64,000 nt of DNA from Ignavibacteria bacterium (GTDB lineage Bacteria > Bacteroidota > Ignavibacteria > Ch128b), in contig JABLYA010000007.1 in the NCBI GenBank assembly GCA_013177855.1, positions 1 through 64,000 of the forward strand, read 5' to 3'. Position 1 is the first letter of the stretch. Every line of letters begins with the position of its first letter. The notes under the pieces were generated by a model that was not told the origin of the DNA, ran no database searches, and saw only the letters and a list, made by a program, of their open reading frames with translations. Made by a program: the position numbers and the translations under genes. Positions 2,714 to 59,430 of the stretch are shown here, in pieces.

Positions 2714-3541
2714 ATGGACAAAGAAAAAAAATTTTTTGATGATATATTGGATGATGAAGATGGTGAAAATAAACTTCAAAATGAAACCGAAGAAACTGAA
2801 TTGACAGAAAATGATGAAGTTGTTGGTTTTGATTTTGAAAGTGATATACCATCAGAAAACTATAAAACTGATTATGATAAAATAGATAATTATAATAGGA
2901 CAAAGGAGGATATTAAAGATAGTGTTGCTGAATTACAAAGTAATATAAATAGTATGCTAGATAAAATTTCAACAAAACCTGAAGATATGTTTCCAGACAA
3001 GGATTTATTACCTAATTTAGATATACAGGTTGAATATCACGATTATGAAAAAGATATAGAACTAATTAAAATAGAGTCAAAAGAAACATTGGAATGTCTT
3101 GCTAATCTTTATCTTACTGAAAAAATGATGAATACTAAGAATATTTACAAAATTATTAAAGATGACTCTATGAATTTGGCTAAGTTAAATTTTTCAATAG
3201 AAATGTCACAAAGAGCAATGATATCATGTATGAGACAATTGGATATGGGTGTTAATGATCCTGATATGTACCAATCAGTGGCTTTATTTCAAAAAGAATT
3301 AAGAGATTCTATTAAAATGGCTTATGATTTACAAAAGAAAATGAAAGACTTTTATAAAGAGTTGAAATCGGAATTACAAGAAATTGATACGGGAGATGAA
3401 ATTACAACACAAGAAGAATCTAACTATATTATTGGTGATCCAAAAATGTTGAATAATTTATTTGAACAAATGAAGAATGATCCGACATTATTAAATGATA
3501 TGTTAAATAAAGATAAAAAGAATGATGATAAGAAGGATTAG
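2714..3541 (+). CDS. Acidic coiled-coil protein, unknown
   Basis: 275 residues. The N-terminal ~60 residues are highly acidic (FFDDILDDEDGE), the middle is predicted helical with repeated hydrophobic spacing, and the C-terminus is very charged (LNKDKKNDDKKD). There is no catalytic motif. A helix-rich, charged protein with an acidic tail could be a scaffold, small terminase-like or prohead core protein, but nothing decides this. Its stop overlaps the end of the convergent minus-strand gene by 4 bp. Confidence 0.6.
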   Translation: MDKEKKFFDDILDDEDGENKLQNETEETELTENDEVVGFDFESDIPSENYKTDYDKIDNYNRTKEDIKDSVAELQSNINSMLDKISTKPEDMFPDKDLLPNLDIQVEYHDYEKDIELIKIESKETLECLANLYLTEKMMNTKNIYKIIKDDSMNLAKLNFSIEMSQRAMISCMRQLDMGVNDPDMYQSVALFQKELRDSIKMAYDLQKKMKDFYKELKSELQEIDTGDEITTQEESNYIIGDPKMLNNLFEQMKNDPTLLNDMLNKDKKNDDKKD

Positions 3542-6370: not shown

Positions 6371-7168
6371 TTAGATTGGAAGTTTTATATTTTGTAAAAC
6401 ATTGGTAGAAATTTGTGTATAGATTTCGGTTGTTTTTATATTATTGTGTCCAGCTAATTTTTGAATGATTCTACAATCTGTTCCATTTTCAATTAAGTGT
6501 GTAAAACACGAATGTCTTAGAGTATGAAAATGATAGTCTTTTCCTAAGTATTCTTTCACAATTTTATTACAAGAATTAGATGAATATTGTGATGAATTCT
6601 GACCATTAAACAAATATTCTTTGGGTTTATATTCTAACCAATATTTTCTTAATAATTCTAGAACATTTTGAGAAAGTGGAACAATTCTATCTTTTCTTCC
6701 CTTTCCATTTTTAATATGTATAATCATTCTTTTAGAATCAATATCCTCAATTTTAAGATTAATAACTTCAGAAACTCTTAATCCAACTGAATATCCTAAT
6801 GAGATAATTGCTTTATGTTTTAAATTTTTAATTTCATTTATTCGTTTGATTAAAAACTCTTTATCAATAATCTGTGGTAAATGTTTTTCTTTACGTGGTC
6901 TTTCAAATAATACTTTATCGTATTTTTTATCTAGAATTTTCTCATATAAAAATTTAATTGCATTTATTATCTGATTTTGTTGTGATATTGATGAAAATTT
7001 ATATGAATCTAAATAAGATTGAAAATCTTTTGAAACAATATGTTGAGGATATTTTTTTGTTGATATTAGAAATTTATGAATGTAATGAAGATAAATTTTT
7101 CGTGTACATTCAGAATAATTAAGATTTTTAAACTTTAGTTCGGCAATCTTTAAAATTTTATCATACAT
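6371..7168 (-). CDS. Tyrosine recombinase (XerC/D-like integrase)
   Basis: 265 residues. N-terminal SAM-like core-binding domain (residues ~1-90), then a catalytic domain with Arg in GLRVSEVINL, Lys in NGKGRKDRIVPL, HTLRHSCFTHL (H-x-x-R), GHNNIKTTEIY (H and the nucleophilic Tyr). All five catalytic positions are present. There is no extra ~20-residue insertion before HxxR of the kind that marks integron IntI. It catalyses site-specific DNA strand exchange, with possible roles in integration, resolution or shuffling. Its 5' end faces the array of tiny genes and repeated modules at 7.2-9 kb, transcribed in the same direction. Confidence 0.9.
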   Translation of the reverse strand: MYDKILKIAELKFKNLNYSECTRKIYLHYIHKFLISTKKYPQHIVSKDFQSYLDSYKFSSISQQNQIINAIKFLYEKILDKKYDKVLFERPRKEKHLPQIIDKEFLIKRINEIKNLKHKAIISLGYSVGLRVSEVINLKIEDIDSKRMIIHIKNGKGRKDRIVPLSQNVLELLRKYWLEYKPKEYLFNGQNSSQYSSNSCNKIVKEYLGKDYHFHTLRHSCFTHLIENGTDCRIIQKLAGHNNIKTTEIYTQISTNVLQNIKLPI

Positions 7169-7228
7169 TTAATTGAACATTAAATAGTTAGAATTGAGTG
7201 TTTATATATAATAGTTATAAACAATAAA

Positions 7229-7405
7229 TTAAAATTGTTTACGTTTCCACTTTTTACGAGTTTTTTTAATCCATTTATCAAAAGATTTTGCTTTATTCTC
7301 ATCAATGTTTTCTGGTTCTACCATGTGTCCTGCTGTTGCTTTATTTGCTGCATCAAATAATTTATCAGCAAAATCTTTTACGTCTTTGTCTGTAAAGTTT
7401 TCCAT
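7229..7405 (-). CDS. Small basic-tailed protein (58 aa)
   Basis: ATG at 7405, stop at 7229. It begins MENFTDKDVKDFADKLFDAA and ends with a basic KKTRKKWKRKQF tail. The start lies ~25 bp downstream of a TATATTTG promoter-like box read on the minus strand (inside 7421-7546), which supports it. Function unknown; the acidic helix plus basic tail could suit a nucleic-acid-binding or DNA-mimic protein, but this is a guess. Confidence 0.7.
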   Translation of the reverse strand: MENFTDKDVKDFADKLFDAANKATAGHMVEPENIDENKAKSFDKWIKKTRKKWKRKQF

Positions 7406-7420
7406 AATTTTAATTTACAT

Positions 7421-7546
7421 GTTTATAACAACAAATATAAAACATTGCTGTCGTGTTTCTATTTATATTATACGTTATTTTTTTAAATTTGTTTCATTTA
7501 ATTTACTTCAGTGCTGCAACGTTTTATATTTGCGACCGTTATAACC
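7421..7546. repeat. Intergenic module copy 1 with imperfect terminal inverted repeats
   Basis: ~125 bp. The left end (TTATAACAACAAATATAAAA) and the right end (GTTTTATATTTG...GTTATAA) are imperfect inverted repeats of about 25 bp. Nearly the same sequence recurs at 7739-7861, and a diverged version at 8021-8146. Each end holds an outward-facing TATATTTG box matching the Bacteroidota -7 consensus TAnnTTTG. The left end would drive the gene at 7405. Confidence 0.75.
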
Positions 7547-7559
7547 AATAAAATGAAAA

Positions 7560-7721
7560 TCACTCTGCATCTTTATAAACATAAATATCTTTCTTAAATA
7601 ATCCACCTTTTATAATCTCTTTTTTAAGAATACCAAATTCAACATAAGTATTAAGCACACCAATAAGAAAGATATTCCTTTGTGTGTATTTTAATTTTAC
7701 TGTTCCCATAAAGTTTTTCAT
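7560..7721 (-). CDS. Small hypothetical protein (53 aa)
   Basis: ATG at 7721, TGA at 7560-7562. Sequence starts MKNFMGTVKLKYTQRNIFLI and has a central hydrophobic strand followed by KKEIIKGGLFKKDIYVYK. Probably a small beta-rich protein. It is downstream of a TATATTTG box in the module at 7739-7861 at the same spacing as its neighbour. Function unknown. Confidence 0.65.
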   Translation of the reverse strand: MKNFMGTVKLKYTQRNIFLIGVLNTYVEFGILKKEIIKGGLFKKDIYVYKDAE

Positions 7722-7738
7722 ATATTTTCATTTAAAAG

Positions 7739-7861
7739 TTTATAACAACAAATATAAAACATTGCTGTCGTGTTTCTATTTATATTATACGTTAATTTTT
7801 AAATTTTGTTCTATTAATTATCATTAGTGTTGCAACGTTTCATATTTGCAGTCGTTATAAG
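7739..7861. repeat. Intergenic module copy 2
   Basis: ~80-90% identical by eye to 7421-7546, including the same core (ATTGCTGTCGTGTTTCTATT) and both imperfect inverted ends. It separates the 53-aa gene from the tRNA-like RNA. Repetition of the whole module between unrelated genes suggests duplication by recombination or a mobile-cassette boundary. Confidence 0.75.
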
Positions 7862-7864
7862 TAA

Positions 7865-8018
7865 TGTTTTGGGAGCGTGGACTCGAACCACTTTCGCAAT
7901 CCAGCGTTACGCCTAAACAATTGGAATCGAACCAATTCTACGTTAACCAAACTTTAATCAGGAATCGAACCTGAACGTCTCAGGGAGCTACCCTTGCCAC
8001 CTTGGAACTCCCAAAACA
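7865..8018 (-). ncRNA. RNA with three tRNA T-arm-like hairpins closed by an 11-bp stem
   Basis: The ends TGTTTTGGGAG (7865-7875) and CTCCCAAAACA (8008-8018) are perfectly complementary. On the minus strand the interior holds three T-arm-like hairpins, each with a 7-nt TTCGAKT-type loop: TCAGG-TTCGATT-CCTGA, AATTGG-TTCGATT-CCAATT and GTGG-TTCGAGT-CCAC. A fourth small hairpin is AGGG-TAGCT-CCCT. Complete D and anticodon arms are not visible, and the units are ~40 nt, too short for tRNAs. A TATATTTG promoter box in the 8021-8146 module ends a few bases upstream of the minus-strand 5' end. It is either a novel structured RNA mimicking tRNA T-arms or a collapsed tRNA cluster. Confidence 0.55.
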
Positions 8019-8020
8019 CA

Positions 8021-8146
8021 TACTTATAACAACAAATATAAAACATTTTATTCTTATTTCAAAATAAAATTTATAGTAATTGTTAAGTTTATTATTTCAA
8101 TTTAAGTTCTGTGTTAAAACGTTTTATATTTGCAATTGTTATAAAC
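8021..8146. repeat. Intergenic module copy 3 (diverged)
   Basis: It has the same terminal sequences as copies 1 and 2 (TTATAACAACAAATATAAAA at left, AACGTTTTATATTTGC near right) around a different core. The left end provides a minus-strand promoter-like box for the T-arm RNA. Further diverged spacers lie at about 8300-8408, 8640-8693 and 8874-8990. Confidence 0.6.
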
Positions 8147-8148
8147 AA

Positions 8149-8292
8149 TTAATTTTTAAATAACCTATTGAAAAAATTCACCCATGATTCTGGAAAATAT
8201 GTATAACAATTTTTGATATATTCATCATAATCCTTCTGCGGTTTTTGAATTTTTTCAATCATTTCTTTTAAAGGTATATTTTCTATTTCCAT
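8149..8292 (-). CDS. Small hypothetical protein (47 aa)
   Basis: ATG at 8292, TAA at 8149. It begins MEIENIPLKEMIEKIQKPQK and ends SWVNFFNRLFKN. Amphipathic helices are likely. The upstream ATAAACAGTTAATTTT matches the leader of the next gene (8873), supporting the start. Function unknown. Confidence 0.65.
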   Translation of the reverse strand: MEIENIPLKEMIEKIQKPQKDYDEYIKNCYTYFPESWVNFFNRLFKN

Positions 8293-8299
8293 AAAATTA

Positions 8300-8408
8300 A
8301 CTGTTTATAACAAGGTATATGTGAAATACCTCATAAGGTTTTTACTAATTATTTAAGTTTGTCGTTAGGTACTTCTACCAAAAAACGTTGTATATTTGCA
8401 ATCGTTAG
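8300..8408. repeat. Diverged intergenic module with hairpin and GTTAGGT
   Basis: It contains a hairpin AGGTAT/ATACCT near 8316-8334, GTTAGGT at about 8362, and the shared right end ACGTTGTATATTTGCAATCG. GTTAGGT fits the GTTRRRY core of integron attC sites, and a similar GTTAGGC occurs near 8951. The match is short and could be chance. Confidence 0.4.
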
Positions 8409-8629
8409 TTGTCATTTTCTTTAATTATCTTAATAGCATCATCTATAAGTTCATCCATTTTACCCAAGTAAGTGTCCATTCCCCATACATCACCTTTACT
8501 ATCTTCATAAGCACTAAGTTCTATTATCTTCCTTAATGTTTCTCGTGATAGAAAACGACAACTAACATCAGATATATGTAATTTTTTATCTGTGTTATCA
8601 AATTCTGTGTCTTTATTTACTTCTTCCAT
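8405..8629 (-). CDS. Acidic small protein (74 aa)
   Basis: Begins MEEVNKDTEFDNTDKKLHIS. A central CRFLSRETLRKIIEL helix is followed by YEDSKGDVWGMDTYLGKMDE. Charged and soluble, no known motif. Third or fourth member of the small-gene array, same strand as the recombinase. Confidence 0.65.
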   Translation of the reverse strand: MEEVNKDTEFDNTDKKLHISDVSCRFLSRETLRKIIELSAYEDSKGDVWGMDTYLGKMDELIDDAIKIIKENDN

Positions 8630-8693
8630 ATTATTTAAGTTTGGGTTTCAATTTAAGAAAAAACTACATATATCTGAGTATCGTTATGTGCCA

Positions 8694-8873
8694 TTAAGAA
8701 TTGACAAACTTATATAGTTCAATCAACAATAACGAAGCCTCTTCTTTATTAAGCACCATCTTCCCTTTCATGTTAATGTAGTTATGAACTGTCAATGTTT
8801 TTTCTTCATTGTAAAAATCATCAATAGTTACAACTGGTGATTCAATAATTTTGTTATCTGTTTCGTAACTCAT
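8694..8873 (-). CDS. Small hypothetical protein (59 aa)
   Basis: I prefer the ATG at 8873 (MSYETDNKIIESPVVTIDDF) over an upstream start, because the palindromic spacer 8889-8919 and a GTTAATTTT leader like that of the gene at 8292 lie just upstream. It has mixed alpha/beta character with KEEASLLLIELYKF at the end. Function unknown. Confidence 0.6.
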   Translation of the reverse strand: MSYETDNKIIESPVVTIDDFYNEEKTLTVHNYINMKGKMVLNKEEASLLLIELYKFVNS

Positions 8874-8888
8874 AGTTTTAAAATTAAC

Positions 8889-8919
8889 GGCATATAACAT
8901 GGTATATATGTTATATGCC
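8889..8919. promoter_or_regulatory. Perfect 12-bp inverted repeat (possible operator or cassette palindrome)
   Basis: GGCATATAACAT and ATGTTATATGCC are perfect inverted repeats separated by 7 bp, in the leader of the 8694-8873 gene. Dyad symmetry of this quality suits a dimeric repressor site or a folded recombination site. It is one of several GTTATAT/ATATAAC-containing spacers in the array. Confidence 0.45.
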
Positions 8920-8991
8920 AAATTAGTGTCGTACTTATTTTTAGAGTTTGTGGTTAGGCGTACAACACATATACCCAACCGTTACCGCCAA

Positions 8992-9177
8992 TTAATATAA
9001 GTCTTTATCGAGGTTAATGTCAATGCGAATGATTTTTGAACTATATCCTATATCTCCTTCTTCCGGAATAAATCGGAAATGTTCAATTGGATATGCAGCA
9101 TATCCTTCCGTTCCTCTTTCGTTTTCAGGTATTGTTTTAGTAGCTCCGATTATTACATCGAAATCATCATCAGCCAT
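8992..9177 (-). CDS. Acidic small protein (61 aa)
   Basis: ATG at 9177 chosen (MADDDFDVIIGATKTIPENE); an in-frame TTG two codons earlier is less likely. It contains a YAAYPIEHFRFIPEEGDIGY stretch with prolines and aromatics. Small, acidic, unknown function. Confidence 0.6.
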   Translation of the reverse strand: MADDDFDVIIGATKTIPENERGTEGYAAYPIEHFRFIPEEGDIGYSSKIIRIDINLDKDLY

Positions 9178-9345: not shown

Positions 9346-9615
9346 TTAACATATTTCATCATCTTTGAAAATCCTTTTTAATTTCTTTTCTCTATTTCTT
9401 CTATATTTTATTCTAACAAATAACGCATCATCTAAAGTAGTCATATTATTATAACAATAAAAATTACCTTTAACCTTCTCTGGATTACCTTTTAAAGTAA
9501 TTAATTTATTATTACAATCAAAATAGCTTTCAACTATTTCTGGATGATTAATTTTTGTTTGTTTTCTTGTCATATTACTAATTAATATTTTAAATATTCT
9601 TTTATATCTGTTCAT
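9346..9615 (-). CDS. Short leucine-rich-repeat protein with C-terminal RExKLxRI tag
   Basis: 89 residues. The middle holds about two ~20-residue repeats (ESYFDCNNKLITLKGNPEK, then VKGNFYCYNNMTTL) of the same class as the long repeat protein at 58667. The C-terminus is NREKKLKRIFKDDEIC, a clear copy of the tag shared by many minus-strand genes here. It overlaps the Dam gene stop region by 14 bp. Likely a truncated LRR interaction module; partner unknown. Confidence 0.7.
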   Translation of the reverse strand: MNRYKRIFKILISNMTRKQTKINHPEIVESYFDCNNKLITLKGNPEKVKGNFYCYNNMTTLDDALFVRIKYRRNREKKLKRIFKDDEIC

Positions 9616-10375
9616 AATTATACCACAATGATTCTATTTTTGATTTACTAATTCTATTATTATTTTGGGTTTTTATTTCCATATCAATTCTATTCCAACC
9701 ATTTTTTTCTAAAATTGAATATCTTTCACAATTATAACCACTAACTAAAATTTTAGCATTTTTAATAGATAATAAAATTTTTAAATATTCATCTTGTTGT
9801 TTATCTGTCATATCATGTTTATATTTTCCAGAACTTCTTGTTTCGTTTGCATATGGTGAATCACAATACATAAATGTATTTTGTTTATCCCATTTTTTAA
9901 TTAAATTTAAAGCATTAGTATTGTGAATTATAACAGAACTTAATCTATTGTGAATTTCATATAATCCATCTATTGCAGAAAGATAATCTGAAACCGGTTT
10001 TGACATTTTCCTACGAATTACTCCAGATGATGAAAATCCACCAACACCATTATAAGAGGTACGATTACAATAAAAAAACTTATAAGCTCTTTCTAATATA
10101 TTTAAATCATCTTTTTTTAAGTCGTTAGTGTATTCTTTTAATAATTCTTCCGAATATGGTGTTAAATCACATAATTCTTTAAATTCCAAAAATAATTTTT
10201 TATCTATCAATACTTTAAACAAAGAGTAAATATTTTGATCTAAATCATTAATTATTTCAATATCTGACTTTTCTTTATGAAAAAGTAATGCAGCCGAACC
10301 ACAAAAAGGTTCTATATAATTCATTTTTTCATAATCTATTCTCTTTATTTTTGTCTTAAATATATAATTATACAA
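9602..10375 (-). CDS. dam: DNA adenine-N6 methyltransferase, D12/Dam class (N-terminus unusual)
   Basis: 257 residues. Motif I (SAM binding) is IEPFCGSAALLF and motif IV is CDSPYANE, a DPPY variant with Ser. A target-recognition helical insert lies between them (RTSYNGVGGFSSSG is typical). The usual N-terminal GGKxxL motif is absent: the frame begins with TTG at 10375, or with ATG at M18. The 5' part may be lost or altered. Dam-type enzymes methylate adenine in short palindromes such as GATC, which can protect phage DNA. Confident family, less sure of activity. Confidence 0.85.
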   Translation of the reverse strand: MYNYIFKTKIKRIDYEKMNYIEPFCGSAALLFHKEKSDIEIINDLDQNIYSLFKVLIDKKLFLEFKELCDLTPYSEELLKEYTNDLKKDDLNILERAYKFFYCNRTSYNGVGGFSSSGVIRRKMSKPVSDYLSAIDGLYEIHNRLSSVIIHNTNALNLIKKWDKQNTFMYCDSPYANETRSSGKYKHDMTDKQQDEYLKILLSIKNAKILVSGYNCERYSILEKNGWNRIDMEIKTQNNNRISKSKIESLWYNYEQI

Positions 10376-11864: not shown

Positions 11865-14800
11865 TCATTTAATATACGAAAACTCCCACAATGATGGTAA
11901 GTTTTTCATATATCCAACAGCATTAAATAATCCTACACAGATATTTACTATGAATTTTGGTACACAACAAAGTATATTAATAATCGTTGGTAGCCATGTT
12001 ATAACGTTTTTAAATCTATTTTTCTTGTCATTATTTTGTTGTTCAAATTCTTGTTGATTTTGTTTTAATGTATTTAATTCTTTACTTAATTTATCTAACT
12101 CTTTTTCCATTTCTAATTTAGTTTGTAATAACTGTTCATTTGTTCCAATTGAAATTTTAATATTATCTAGTTGGTTTTTGAGATCAATGTTAAGTCTTTT
12201 TAATTCTTCATTTTTTGATAATTTATTAGAAAACTCAAAATCACTCATAGTTTCTTTATTTAAGCACAAATCACTTTCTAACTGATTTATTTGTACATTA
12301 TTTTGTTGTATTTTAGCATTTAAACTATTTACTAAATCTAAATTACTCTGATCATTTTGATTATTATTGATATTATCCTGCAATTTATTTAATTTTTTCT
12401 TTAAATTATCAATTTGTTTTTGTTTTTCTATAATTTGTTTATTATAAGGAGTTATTTTATTTTCACTATCTAAGAAATCATTCATAATTTGTATAAGTTT
12501 ATCAATATTATTCTTAAATGAACATAAATTACCAAATAATGAAATTTTTTCATTTAGTTCCGAAATTTTTGCCTTTTTATCATTTATATCAGATTGTATA
12601 GAATCAATATCATAAACATTATCTAAATTTTGTAGTTGTGTTTCCAATTTTATTTTATCAGCTTGTAATTGTGATAATGATTTGTTTTTTAATTCATTTA
12701 ATTTTTTATTGTTCTCTTGAATTTGATTTTCTAAGTCATTTACAATTAAACAATTTTCTTTTAATTGTTTTTCTAATATTAATAATATGTTCTCAGATAT
12801 CGAATCATTGCTTTTGATATTATTTTCAATAACTTCAATGTTTTTGGCATGAACTATTTGTAAATTTTTAAGTTTTGTGTTAAATCTTTCTATATCAGAT
12901 AAATCACCATTTATGATAGAATTGGTTAATATTAATTGACTATTTAATTCGTTTTGTCTTTTATTTTTTGCTTTAGTTACAGTATCTAATTTATCATATA
13001 AATTATTTAAATTTTGGTTTAAATTCTTTACTTGATTTGAGAATTTTGATGATAATTGTTTCAATGTGGTCATAAATTCAGCAAAACCTTTTACAAAAAT
13101 ATCAATTAACATCAAACCATCAGAATTTGTAAATAAAAATTCCATCATACCATCTAATGTTGGTAATTTTTTAATAAGTTCTACAAGTTTTCCGAATCTT
13201 GTAATAATTCCCCAATCATTTTCATTTGTAGATGAAGGATTTCCAATAATCCAATCTGGAATTTTCATTGGATTTAATGGTATGCTTATTACTTTAATAA
13301 TCAAATCCACAAGTTTTTTTATGAGTTCAAATATAAATTTCATAGGCATTGTGATGACGGTAGTTATCGTATTTATAATGGTTTTAGTCCACTCCAATAT
13401 AGGATTTCTAGGAATTAAATACATAACATCTTTTAGCAATGACTTCCAATCATCCATACCAAAATTAAAAGGATATTCTAATAATTTAGCAATATTTTTT
13501 GACCAATTTGGATCATAAAAATTAACACCTATTTTATCTAATGCTTCAAATTTTTCTAATTCAGCAAGTATTAAATCGGTATTTAACTTATAAACTTTAT
13601 TATCTAATTTGGATTTTTCTTCATTCAACAATAATAATTCAGCATCAATATCTACTTTTTTTAATTTCAATATTTTATTTCTTTCATCTAATAATTTATT
13701 TATTTCGTCATTTAACTTTGTTATCAATGAACATTTTTTATCTAAATTATTTGATAAATTGTTTAATTCTATTGCGGTAAAATTTGAAACATTCGTATTT
13801 TTCAAATTTTTAATATCTGTTAATGTTGTTGCTTGTAAAATTCTTAGTTTTTTAAGTTTATTGTCAATATCAATTATTAGTGAACCATTTAGAATATTTT
13901 CCAGATACGATATTCTTTTTAATATTTTAGACATCTTTTCTTCTCTGTTTTTCAAATATTCTATCTTAGCATCTACAACATATTGAGGTATAGAAATTAA
14001 TTTTAATTGAACAAGTGATTCAATTTTTTGCATATAATCATCTTCTGGTTGTTCAAAATCAACACCTAATTTATTAAGTATAGCAATCTTCTGCCTGTTT
14101 TCTATTTCTAAATAATCTATACCTAATTTTTTTAAATTTACAGCTTTATTATAATCTAATAACCAATTATCTTTTCTAAAATCTATACCAAGTGAATTCA
14201 AATTTGACATTTGAGATATCCATTTTTTAGTACCCGATTGAACATAACTATTTGTAACATTTACAATAGTGGAAAAATTAATACCCAATTCTTTTAATTT
14301 CTGAATTTTATTACTCCAATCATTATCTTTAAAATTAATACCAAAAGAAATTAATTCTTCAATAGCATTTTCAAAATCCTTATCATTTATATTTAAGCCT
14401 ATTGAATGCAATTCGTTAATCATAGTTAACCATTCTGGTCTATTAAAATTAAATCCTATATTATTTAAAGCATTTAATTTATCATCCATATCCACACCAT
14501 TTGTAACTGTTTCATTTGATATATTGAAACTAAAACCTAATTGACTTAAGCTATCTAATTTATTCATACTTTCTACACTATTATAATGCCAACCTAAAGC
14601 ACACAAAGCATCCACTATATTAGCAGTTTGAAATGCACTAATATTAAATGATAAACCGTTCAATTTATTTAAAAAAGCATCATATGTTGGATTTTGAAAG
14701 TTAAATCCCATTTTATTAAGTGAGTCGAGCTGAATAATTGTTTTTGTTGGTTGTTTAGGTTTATTAGGATCTATAATATTAGTAATTTCTATACGAGCAT

Positions 14801-52950: not shown

Positions 52951-53410
52951 AAAATTATTATAAATAACGGTTGCAAATATAAAACGTTTATAACTAAACT
53001 TTAATGTTGGGATATAATCATCATTTGTAATACTATATTCAAATATATCAAATTCTTAAAATGAAAATAGTATCATTCAATCTTGAAATTTTTATTTTTT
53101 TTTAAGAAAAAAAAAATAAAAATTTAGAGATATTATCATGATCTTGCACTTTTCGAATTAAAATAATAATTATCAGAGACTATAGAAATTAAATATAATG
53201 ATGTTAAATATGGAAATTTAAGTATTAAGATATGCTTGATGGTGATAACTAAAACATATTCTTAATTGTTTGATTAAAATAAATTTATTAAAATGATGGA
53301 TTTTAAAATACCATTATTTGTGTTGCAATTTAAATATTTGGTATGGATAAAATAAAACTTATGAATGTCCAAAGTACGATACTATAGAATAACACATTTT
53401 ACAATGATTT
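52951..53410. other. 460-bp region without convincing gene
   Basis: It contains a copy of the small-gene promoter box in reverse (GGTTGCAAATATAAAACGTT at about 52969-52988) and a long A/T palindrome at 53083-53124 (AAATTTTTATTTTTTTTT and its complement). No frame longer than ~25 codons looks coding. Possibly decayed sequence. Confidence 0.5.
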
Positions 53411-58540: not shown

Positions 58541-58620
58541 CATTTATTATTTCTTCAATCTTTTCAAATTTATCGACATATTTTTTTAATATATCACTGT
58601 GATAAGATTTACTACTTTAA
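58541..58620 (-). pseudogene. Small minus-strand C-terminal fragment
   Basis: SKSYHSDILKKYVDKFEKIE then EIINDN in an open frame with an upstream stop and no ATG. Likely a relic. Confidence 0.3.
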
Positions 58621-58666
58621 AAAATGTTTAAAAAATAATATATATTATAAAAATAATTTATAAACT

Positions 58667-59355
58667 ATGAAAATATTGAAAAATTGGAAACGATTTAATA
58701 AAAATTCTATTAGATGGAAAAAAACACACTGGTAGGCTCACCAAAAATAGTTGAAGGCAATTTTGATTGTTCTGATAATAAATTAACATCATTAGAAGGT
58801 GCTCCAGAAATAGTTAAAGGTAATTTTGATTGTTCTTATAATCAATTAACTTCATTAGAAGGTGCACCAAAAAAGGTTAAAGGCAATTTTAATTGTTATT
58901 ATAATAAATTAACTTCATTAGAAGGTGCTCCAGAAAAGGTTGAAGGTTATTTTAATTGTTTTTCTAATAAATTAACTTCATTAAAAGGTGCACCAAAAAT
59001 AGTTGAAGGTTATTTTAATTGTTCTGATAATAAATTAATTTCGTTGGAAGGTGCTCCAAAAATGGTTGAAGGTGATTTTAATTGTTCTTTTAATCAATTA
59101 ACTTCATTGGAAGGTGCACCAGAAATATTTAAAGGTAGTTTTTATTGTTCTTATAATAACTTAATTTCATTAAAAGGTGCACCAAAAAAAGTTGAAGGTA
59201 ATTTTAATTGTTCTTATAATAAATTAATTTCATTAAAATATGCTCCAGAAATAGTTGAAGGTGATTTTATTTGTTATGATAATAATTTAACAGAAAAAGA
59301 TATAGAATGGTTAAAACAAAATTCTAAAATAAAGGGAAAAATTATATGGAAATAA
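58667..59355 (+). CDS. Leucine-rich-repeat protein with capsid-targeting-like leader (frameshift)
   Basis: ATG at 58667 reads MKILKNWKRFNKNSIRWKK and then shifts in an A7 run (about 58718) into NTLVGSPKIVEGNFDCSDNK. The remainder has ~9 repeats of 20 residues (GNFDCSYNQLTSLEGAPKK type). The LRR belongs to a phage class of unknown binding partner. The leader matches that of 57012. Ends DIEWLKQNSKIKGKI. Confidence 0.75.
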
Positions 59356-59358
59356 AAT

Positions 59359-59430
59359 ATGAAAAATTATAACAATTTCATATTAGAAAAAATCATTCGA
59401 AAAGAAAACATAGATCCATATACTTTTTGA
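59359..59430 (+). pseudogene. Capsid-targeting-like leader remnant
   Basis: ATG at 59359: MKNYNNFILEKIIRKENIDP, stop after YTF. It matches the leader pattern (YNNFILE) but the cargo is lost. Confidence 0.4.

Follow-up and report, generated by a model that had tools for sequence, protein, structure and literature searches.

Results

The locus and its features

The DNA analysed here, hereafter the window, comprises the 64,000 nucleotides (nt) at positions 1-64000 of contig C7 (JABLYA010000007.1) of the Ignavibacteria assembly GCA_013177855.1, labelled G000 below. At 6371-9177 a tyrosine recombinase gene lies beside a row of small genes that are separated by hairpin-forming sites, and the comparisons presented below make it very probable that this region is an integron-type platform for cassette capture, carried by a huge phage of the Caudoviricetes. 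The features are given below with protein lengths in amino acids (aa); the small genes are open reading frames (ORFs).

6371-7168, minus strand: tyrosine recombinase, 265 aa, without the IntI-specific insertion (PF00589)
7203-7221, plus strand: attI-like site TATATATAATA-GTTATAAA, core G at 7214; its variable bases equal the 1L box of attC-like site 1 at 4 of 4
7229-7405, minus strand: cassette 1 gene (ORF), 58 aa, directed toward the recombinase
7422-7545, plus strand: attC-like site 1 (z -2.6)
7560-7721, minus strand: cassette 2 gene (ORF), 53 aa
7739-7861, plus strand: attC-like site 2
7862-8022, minus strand: cassette 3, a structured RNA-like unit with three T-arm-like hairpins and no ORF of note
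8023-8145, plus strand: attC-like site 3 (z -3.5)
8149-8292, minus strand: cassette 4 gene (ORF), 47 aa
8304-8411, plus strand: attC-like site 4, stem degenerate or hybrid (stem score 19.5, z -0.3); both cores obey the junction rule
8405-8629, minus strand: cassette 5 gene (ORF), 74 aa, start codon inside attC-like site 5
8559-8690, plus strand: attC-like site 5 (z -2.9)
8694-8873, minus strand: cassette 6 gene (ORF), 59 aa
8891-8988, plus strand: attC-like site 6, at which the intact array ends distally
8992-9177, minus strand: 61-aa gene (ORF) past the last intact site, possibly a truncated cassette

The six attC-like sites read on the plus strand away from the recombinase, each beginning with ..TAAC and ending with GTTA.., and five of them are long-stemmed. 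Their recombination cores, GTTA, lie at 7538, 7854, 8138, 8404, 8683 and 8981; the attI core at 7214 belongs to a motif of the form TATATATAATA-GTTA located just before the recombinase start codon. The single-stranded DNA fold of site 6 favours a local palindrome (z -1.3).

An earlier, sequence-only reading had described a complete tyrosine recombinase and a row of small genes with an RNA-like unit, all of which are present. The three spacers that it singled out (7421-7546, 7739-7861 and 8021-8146) proved to be copies of a module of ~126 nt, 68-71% identical over 126 nt, with the imperfect terminal inverted repeats that it reported, but it overlooked site 5. The palindrome noted at 8889-8919 is real, although merely a part of site 6, and the motifs GTTAGGT (8364) and GTTAGGC (8953), which had been matched to the attC core, sit inside hairpin loops and are coincidental, the true cores being GTTA.

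Cassette junctions and the attI motif

Two scans of viral contigs (IMG/VR) returned 81 related loci at 51-71% identity, several of them on contigs of 200-362 kb. When the window was added, an attI motif scoring at least 12 was present in 74 of 82 loci, compared with 39 of 380 shuffles. Upstream of this recombinase family, attC-like hairpins occurred at 0.83 per kb, a density about 20 times that found downstream (0.041 per kb); the controls gave 0.016 per kb in unrelated viral contigs, more than 50 times below the upstream value, and 0.009 per kb in dinucleotide shuffles.

Integron cassettes open between G and TT, and the 1L box of an attC site consequently pairs with the first bases of its own cassette. 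The window follows this rule at 22 of 24 variable bases when 1L boxes are set against the preceding junctions, a score that 6 of 720 permutations equal, several boxes being alike. In 59 of 64 non-redundant loci (attI score of at least 12, gaps below 1500 nt), 116 of 175 adjacent junctions were identical at all four variable bases, as against 4.2% with random pairing, and the own-site control, in which 1L and 1R of one site were compared, gave 9 of 194. The classical integron that served as control, the Vibrio IntI array of phage Va_90-11-286_p16 (L325), matched at 11 of 12 junctions when scanned identically. Neither the junction test nor the attI test played a part in picking the sites. The junction rule fixes the polarity of the array, with cassette entry at the recombinase side and attC at the far end, as in an integron.

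Cassette turnover between near-identical phages

Loci L032 and L131 agree at 98.9% in the recombinase gene and at 99.9% over 9,997 nt of the flank downstream of it, yet their cassettes differ from the attI core onward. The recombinase genes of L132, L134, L135 and L136, which were recovered under four IMG metagenome ids, are identical; upstream, these loci agree over 55 nt that include the attI core and diverge beyond them. The exception is a first cassette common to L132 and L135, which carries the identity to nt 410, the two splitting again just past the next core. The downstream flank of L132 is matched at 100% in both L135 and L136 and at 95% in L134. Divergence also starts at the attI core in the pairs L189/L190 (recombinases 100% identical) and L133/L137 (99.5%). 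Other loci display rearrangement: L151 and L163 (recombinases 90.8% and downstream flanks 99.8% identical) share cassette blocks in differing order with edges at cores, and L026 holds one cassette twice, identical over 394 nt, once from attI and again at 3039, the identity being absent before either start. As read from these alignments, the G/TTA cores are evidently the exact points at which cassettes are gained and lost, duplicated or put in a new order. Metagenome-assembled genomes and IMG/VR contigs may be chimeric; many independent contigs agree.

The recombinase

The catalytic R-K-H-R-H-Y residues are present in the recombinase of the window and are kept in nearly all of 14 aligned members. 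Of the four PF00589 matches in G000, the other three all lie on contig C1, and contigs C6 and C7 carry no match but this one. The recombinase scored 146 bits against the integron integrase model TIGR02249 (cut-off 265), whereas true IntI proteins, used as positive controls, scored 494 and 394 bits in one piece. The model found no match over cut-off in 14 genomes (G000 and 13 genomes out of those of 80 bacterial loci, L111 being left out) or in 18 phage records (17 from the 81 phage loci, and LR756500.1), and the matches below it break around the IntI-specific part. Alignment to the solved IntI4 (2a3v) likewise leaves a gap between query residues 175 and 210, opposite residues 179-262 of the chain. 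The IntI-specific insertion of classical integrases is absent from this protein.

In the PDB, XerA-like 4a8e is the closest match by sequence. An AlphaFold model (mean predicted local distance difference test score, pLDDT, 84.8) was matched best by VIA-align to XerA 5hxy (Z 19.0, root-mean-square deviation, rmsd, 13.2 over 257) and IntI4 2a3v (Z 17.8, rmsd 15.9 over 262), but many tyrosine recombinases lie close in VIA-align score, so that a structure match alone cannot separate Xer from integron integrases. A tree of 71 proteins places the phage recombinases on one side of a branch (99/96), apart from IntI and XerC/D, and groups the related Bacteroidota recombinases with arrays weakly (70/36). 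Four sequences from bacterial genomes (L048-L051) lie among the phage recombinases, and may stem from phage contigs that were binned with those genomes. The broad family includes TnpF-like proteins on Acinetobacter plasmids (50% over residues 70-265); at L043-L046, with 34-37% identity to the recombinase, an array of this kind was not found.

Geometry of the sites

Of 194 phage sites, 167 have an inner loop whose 1R side is longer by 3 nt or more, 180 have a single mismatch 13-15 nt from the core, and 23 show extrahelical bases on the 1L side (a 5'-arm bulge within the first 20 nt). The corresponding counts are 53, 48 and 15 in related Bacteroidota sites (n=59), and 0, 1 and 13 in the Vibrio control (n=13). 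The 5'-arm extrahelical bases of classical attC sites are not a feature of this system. The IntI-specific helix contacts the extrahelical bases, and since helix and bases are both absent here, a co-evolution of enzyme and site would make sense. The hairpin scanner demands complementary arms and prefers the AACA/CGTT polarity where both strands match. The strict GTTRRRY core is a poor criterion, as only 2 of the 13 Vibrio control sites fit it; it was found in 0 of 6 1R cores of the window and in 15 of the 194 phage sites.

Cassette genes and their expression

Cassettes were filtered for 3 or 4 of 4 matching junction bases. The longest ORF points toward attI in 100 of 125 filtered phage cassettes and toward attC in 6, the other 19 being without an ORF of at least 35 aa; the 27 filtered Bacteroidota cassettes are directed toward attC in 23 cases and toward attI in 2, with 2 lacking an ORF. 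Median ORF length is 76 aa in the phage cassettes versus 178 aa in the related Bacteroidota cassettes. In phage and Bacteroidota loci alike, the cassette genes share the direction of the recombinase gene. Phage cassettes do not, then, show the attI-to-attC gene direction of classical IntI integrons, and their reversed genes cannot rely on a promoter in attI but must bring or borrow one of their own.

A TATATTTG box, which we take to resemble a Bacteroidota promoter, is carried by the three similar modules of the window. That every attC acts as a cassette promoter was considered and rejected: the TAnnTTTG box occurs in 25 of 194 sites and in 358 of 3880 shuffles (~9%), so that the promoter idea could apply to no more than a single type of site. 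A generic sigma-70 scan gave 15 promoter-like sites, which is below shuffles (mean 24.3).

Pfam matched few of 108 cassette proteins. D12 adenine methyltransferase was found twice, and Lar restriction-alleviation, exoribonuclease, YopX, GNAT and DUF6527 once each. The cassette methyltransferases match defence models too, and it is plausible that some cassettes act in counter-defence. Just past the array of the window, at 9602-10375 on the minus strand, there is a D12-type adenine methyltransferase gene of the same family as the two cassette genes, which belong to other phages. Only 4 pairs among the 108 proteins are shared between loci, which means either that distant phages seldom exchange cassettes in this sample or that cassettes are very diverse.

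The hairpin site overlaps the start of the neighbouring gene at 8559-8690 of the window and at 13198-13377 of LR756500.1 (L009), and as a consequence of this overlap unlike proteins have a common N-terminal peptide, K-L-H/N-I-S-D-V/A. The RNA-like unit of cassette 3 is closed by an 11-bp stem and contains three T-arm-like hairpins with GTTCGA. ARAGORN detected no transfer RNA (tRNA) in the window, and the unit is accordingly not a standard tRNA; Rfam gave no match in the whole window at gathering scores, nor in 7700-8200 at E up to 5. The same unit is present in the phage of L189 (~7040-7195, plus strand), and further viral contigs hold comparable clusters of three T-arms, often by tRNAs (L215, L245, L267, L301, L318 and L321).

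The surrounding phage genome

The window is part of a huge Caudoviricetes phage. Contig C7 is 147 kb long and was binned with a bacterial genome, and the phage genes on C6 and C7 encode T4-like baseplate proteins, a tail fibre, topoisomerase II, DNA polymerase, SbcC and NAD-dependent DNA ligase, together with tRNAs. The two contigs probably represent one phage, since the same module is copied on both. The copy on C6 (179427-179545) is a lone module outside any array, 88% identical to those of the window; a solitary half module, also outside the array, is found on C7 at 52964-52988 of the window. Elsewhere in the window, CRISPR-like (clustered regularly interspaced short palindromic repeats) mini-arrays at 769-1835, with a repeat of ~36 nt (ATTAGAAAAACATTGCAAAATTAAAGGGGTTACACC) and spacers of ~30 nt unlike one another, are broken up by copies of a 149-nt repeat, and tandem 63-nt repeats at 58608-59363 (nine overlapping 252-nt copies) are related to sequence at 9444-9528.

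Discussion

Three properties of an integron in the functional sense were found at this locus: a recombinase gene beside the array, an attI core at the point of cassette entry, and 1L boxes that repeat the start of their own cassette. As far as sequence comparison can tell, the system works like an integron, yet it is not an IntI integron. Comparison of loci shows the platform to comprise the recombinase gene, an attI core directly ahead of the start codon of that gene, and small cassettes in a row, every one of them made up of TTAnnnn, a gene and an attC-like hairpin. We suggest that the adjacent recombinase brings a folded attC hairpin together with either attI or a second attC site, and that it would read the hairpin by the asymmetric internal loop and the fixed mismatch, not by extrahelical bases and an IntI-specific helix. 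The cassettes would then provide accessory genes, some of them for counter-defence. The sequence-only reading had proposed that the array is integron-like, or that it could be a phage cassette system of a new type, and the comparative data agree. The two observations that it set against its own proposal also hold, in that the recombinase lacks the IntI-specific insertion (146 bits, and an alignment to 2a3v that is broken there) and the genes point toward it, as they do in 100 phage cassettes as opposed to 6 in the forward direction. The comparison of gene order in related phages that it recommended shows that order is not kept, since cassettes differ from the attI core on despite identical or near-identical recombinase genes.

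Could the attC-like sites instead form a passive cluster on which a classical IntI of the host or of another element acts in trans, the neighbouring recombinase being unrelated to them? IntI1 is able to use five of six phage attC sites, according to the parts of PMC9892861 drawn on here, and LR756500.1 (a 462-kb phage) contains attC-like arrays with small genes at 11.7-15.1 kb and 20.8-21.6 kb that are accompanied by no such recombinase, the integron integrase model finding no match in that record. However, an attI-like core precedes this very recombinase gene in 74 of 82 loci, the IntI profile exceeds its cut-off in none of the 14 genomes and none of the 18 phage records (394 and 494 for true IntI), and the sites are without the extrahelical bases of the IntI control. 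We therefore regard service in trans as very unlikely. A further possibility, in which an ordinary lysogeny integrase stands beside genes whose variability stems from ordinary phage mosaicism or from homologous recombination between repeats, appears to us extremely unlikely. Related temperate phages, Ingeline and Freya, do have similar integrases (35-40% identity), but the breakpoints observed here coincide with a short core past which the sequences have nothing in common, mosaicism would not be expected to produce the junction rule, and the stems vary from site to site, which leaves little homology for recombination. An invasion of the region by elements resembling miniature inverted-repeat transposable elements (MITEs), which the sequence-only reading had offered, or by shared promoters, is suggested by the likeness of the three modules and their TATATTTG box, but it has next to no credibility, because the 194 phage sites differ in their stems while sharing cores, loop asymmetry and mismatch, and because so few of them carry the TAnnTTTG box (25 of 194, with 9% in shuffles).

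The interpretation as an integron-type platform should nevertheless be held with some caution, since several observations weigh against it. Site 4 of the window is without a proper stem. Junctions were inexact in 59 of 175 cases, a figure that lumps together missed sites, real divergence and chance, and among 45 non-redundant loci with at least 1.5 kb upstream, at least one exact junction was seen in 31 and none in 14. In some of the pairs compared, the downstream flanks have diverged too (80-93% identity in L189/L190, 92% in L133/L137, and 95% between L134 and L132). The arrays of LR756500.1, being without a recombinase of this profile, indicate that arrays can exist without it. The criteria of the hairpin scanner mean that the stem statistics are partly selected, although the junction and attI tests are unaffected. 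Finally, the IntI insertion is held to be essential in the literature, so far as the portions consulted go: Smyshlyaev et al. 2021, in the sections used, describe it as not fully conserved in an integron-like subgroup and yet as essential for function. That subgroup may include some of the recombinases of the family studied here.

The relationship to known systems can be described as follows. With the classical integron of the Vibrio control the present system shares a recombinase by attI, cassettes with hairpin sites, the G/TTA core, 1L boxes equal to the start of their own cassette (11 of 12 in the control) and turnover at attI; it differs in lacking the IntI-specific insertion and the 5'-arm extrahelical bases, in having attC sites with an asymmetric loop and a mismatch, and in the reversed genes of its phage cassettes. 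Arrays in Bacteroidota (e.g. L092, L106 and L114) have the same insertion-less recombinase family, attC geometry and junction rule (24 of 33 exact), but their arrays are located 3' to the recombinase gene and their cassette genes are forward and longer. The simple tyrosine recombinases Xer and XerA have the same domain make-up and length, whereas the family of the window forms a clade apart from chromosomal XerC/D and is linked to attI and cassettes. The phage integrons and integrase-less arrays (CALINs) of Qi et al. 2023 (PMC9892861) include attC clusters in virulent phages, as here; the clusters in virulent phages are, in the parts of that paper used, without a recombinase, unlike the present system. 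An array of the present type was not found in a scan of P12002L. Only one complete integron in Bacteroidetes proper, that of Salinibacter ruber, is reported in the consulted part of the IntegronFinder 2.0 paper. A literature search excluding subscription papers and preprints found no paper on this phage system and none that names the Bacteroidota arrays as integrons; the literature drawn on, in part, was PMC9892861, PMC2426708, PMC9668308, PMC9024848, PMC8138268 and PMC8618304.

On balance we consider it likely, with less assurance than we attach to the platform itself, that Bacteroidota and huge phages harbor a second integron lineage, in which a helix-less, Xer-like recombinase would read attC by an asymmetric loop and a fixed mismatch, the two losses having co-evolved. 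Integron finders require the IntI domain, and such systems would thus have been overlooked or counted as integrase-less arrays. In the phages the cassettes would be short, reversed and partly anti-restriction, and would serve a fast exchange of genes between viruses. Integrons are both defined and searched for by the IntI-specific domain, and should a large group of helix-less recombinases form arrays of this type, both that definition and the surveys based on it change. Some CALINs may then gain their enzyme, and the strand choice of the integrase would become directly testable, given a recombinase without the helix and hairpins without the bulges. Huge phages, in turn, would possess a cassette-swapping engine of their own, the turnover of which is visible between near-identical viruses.

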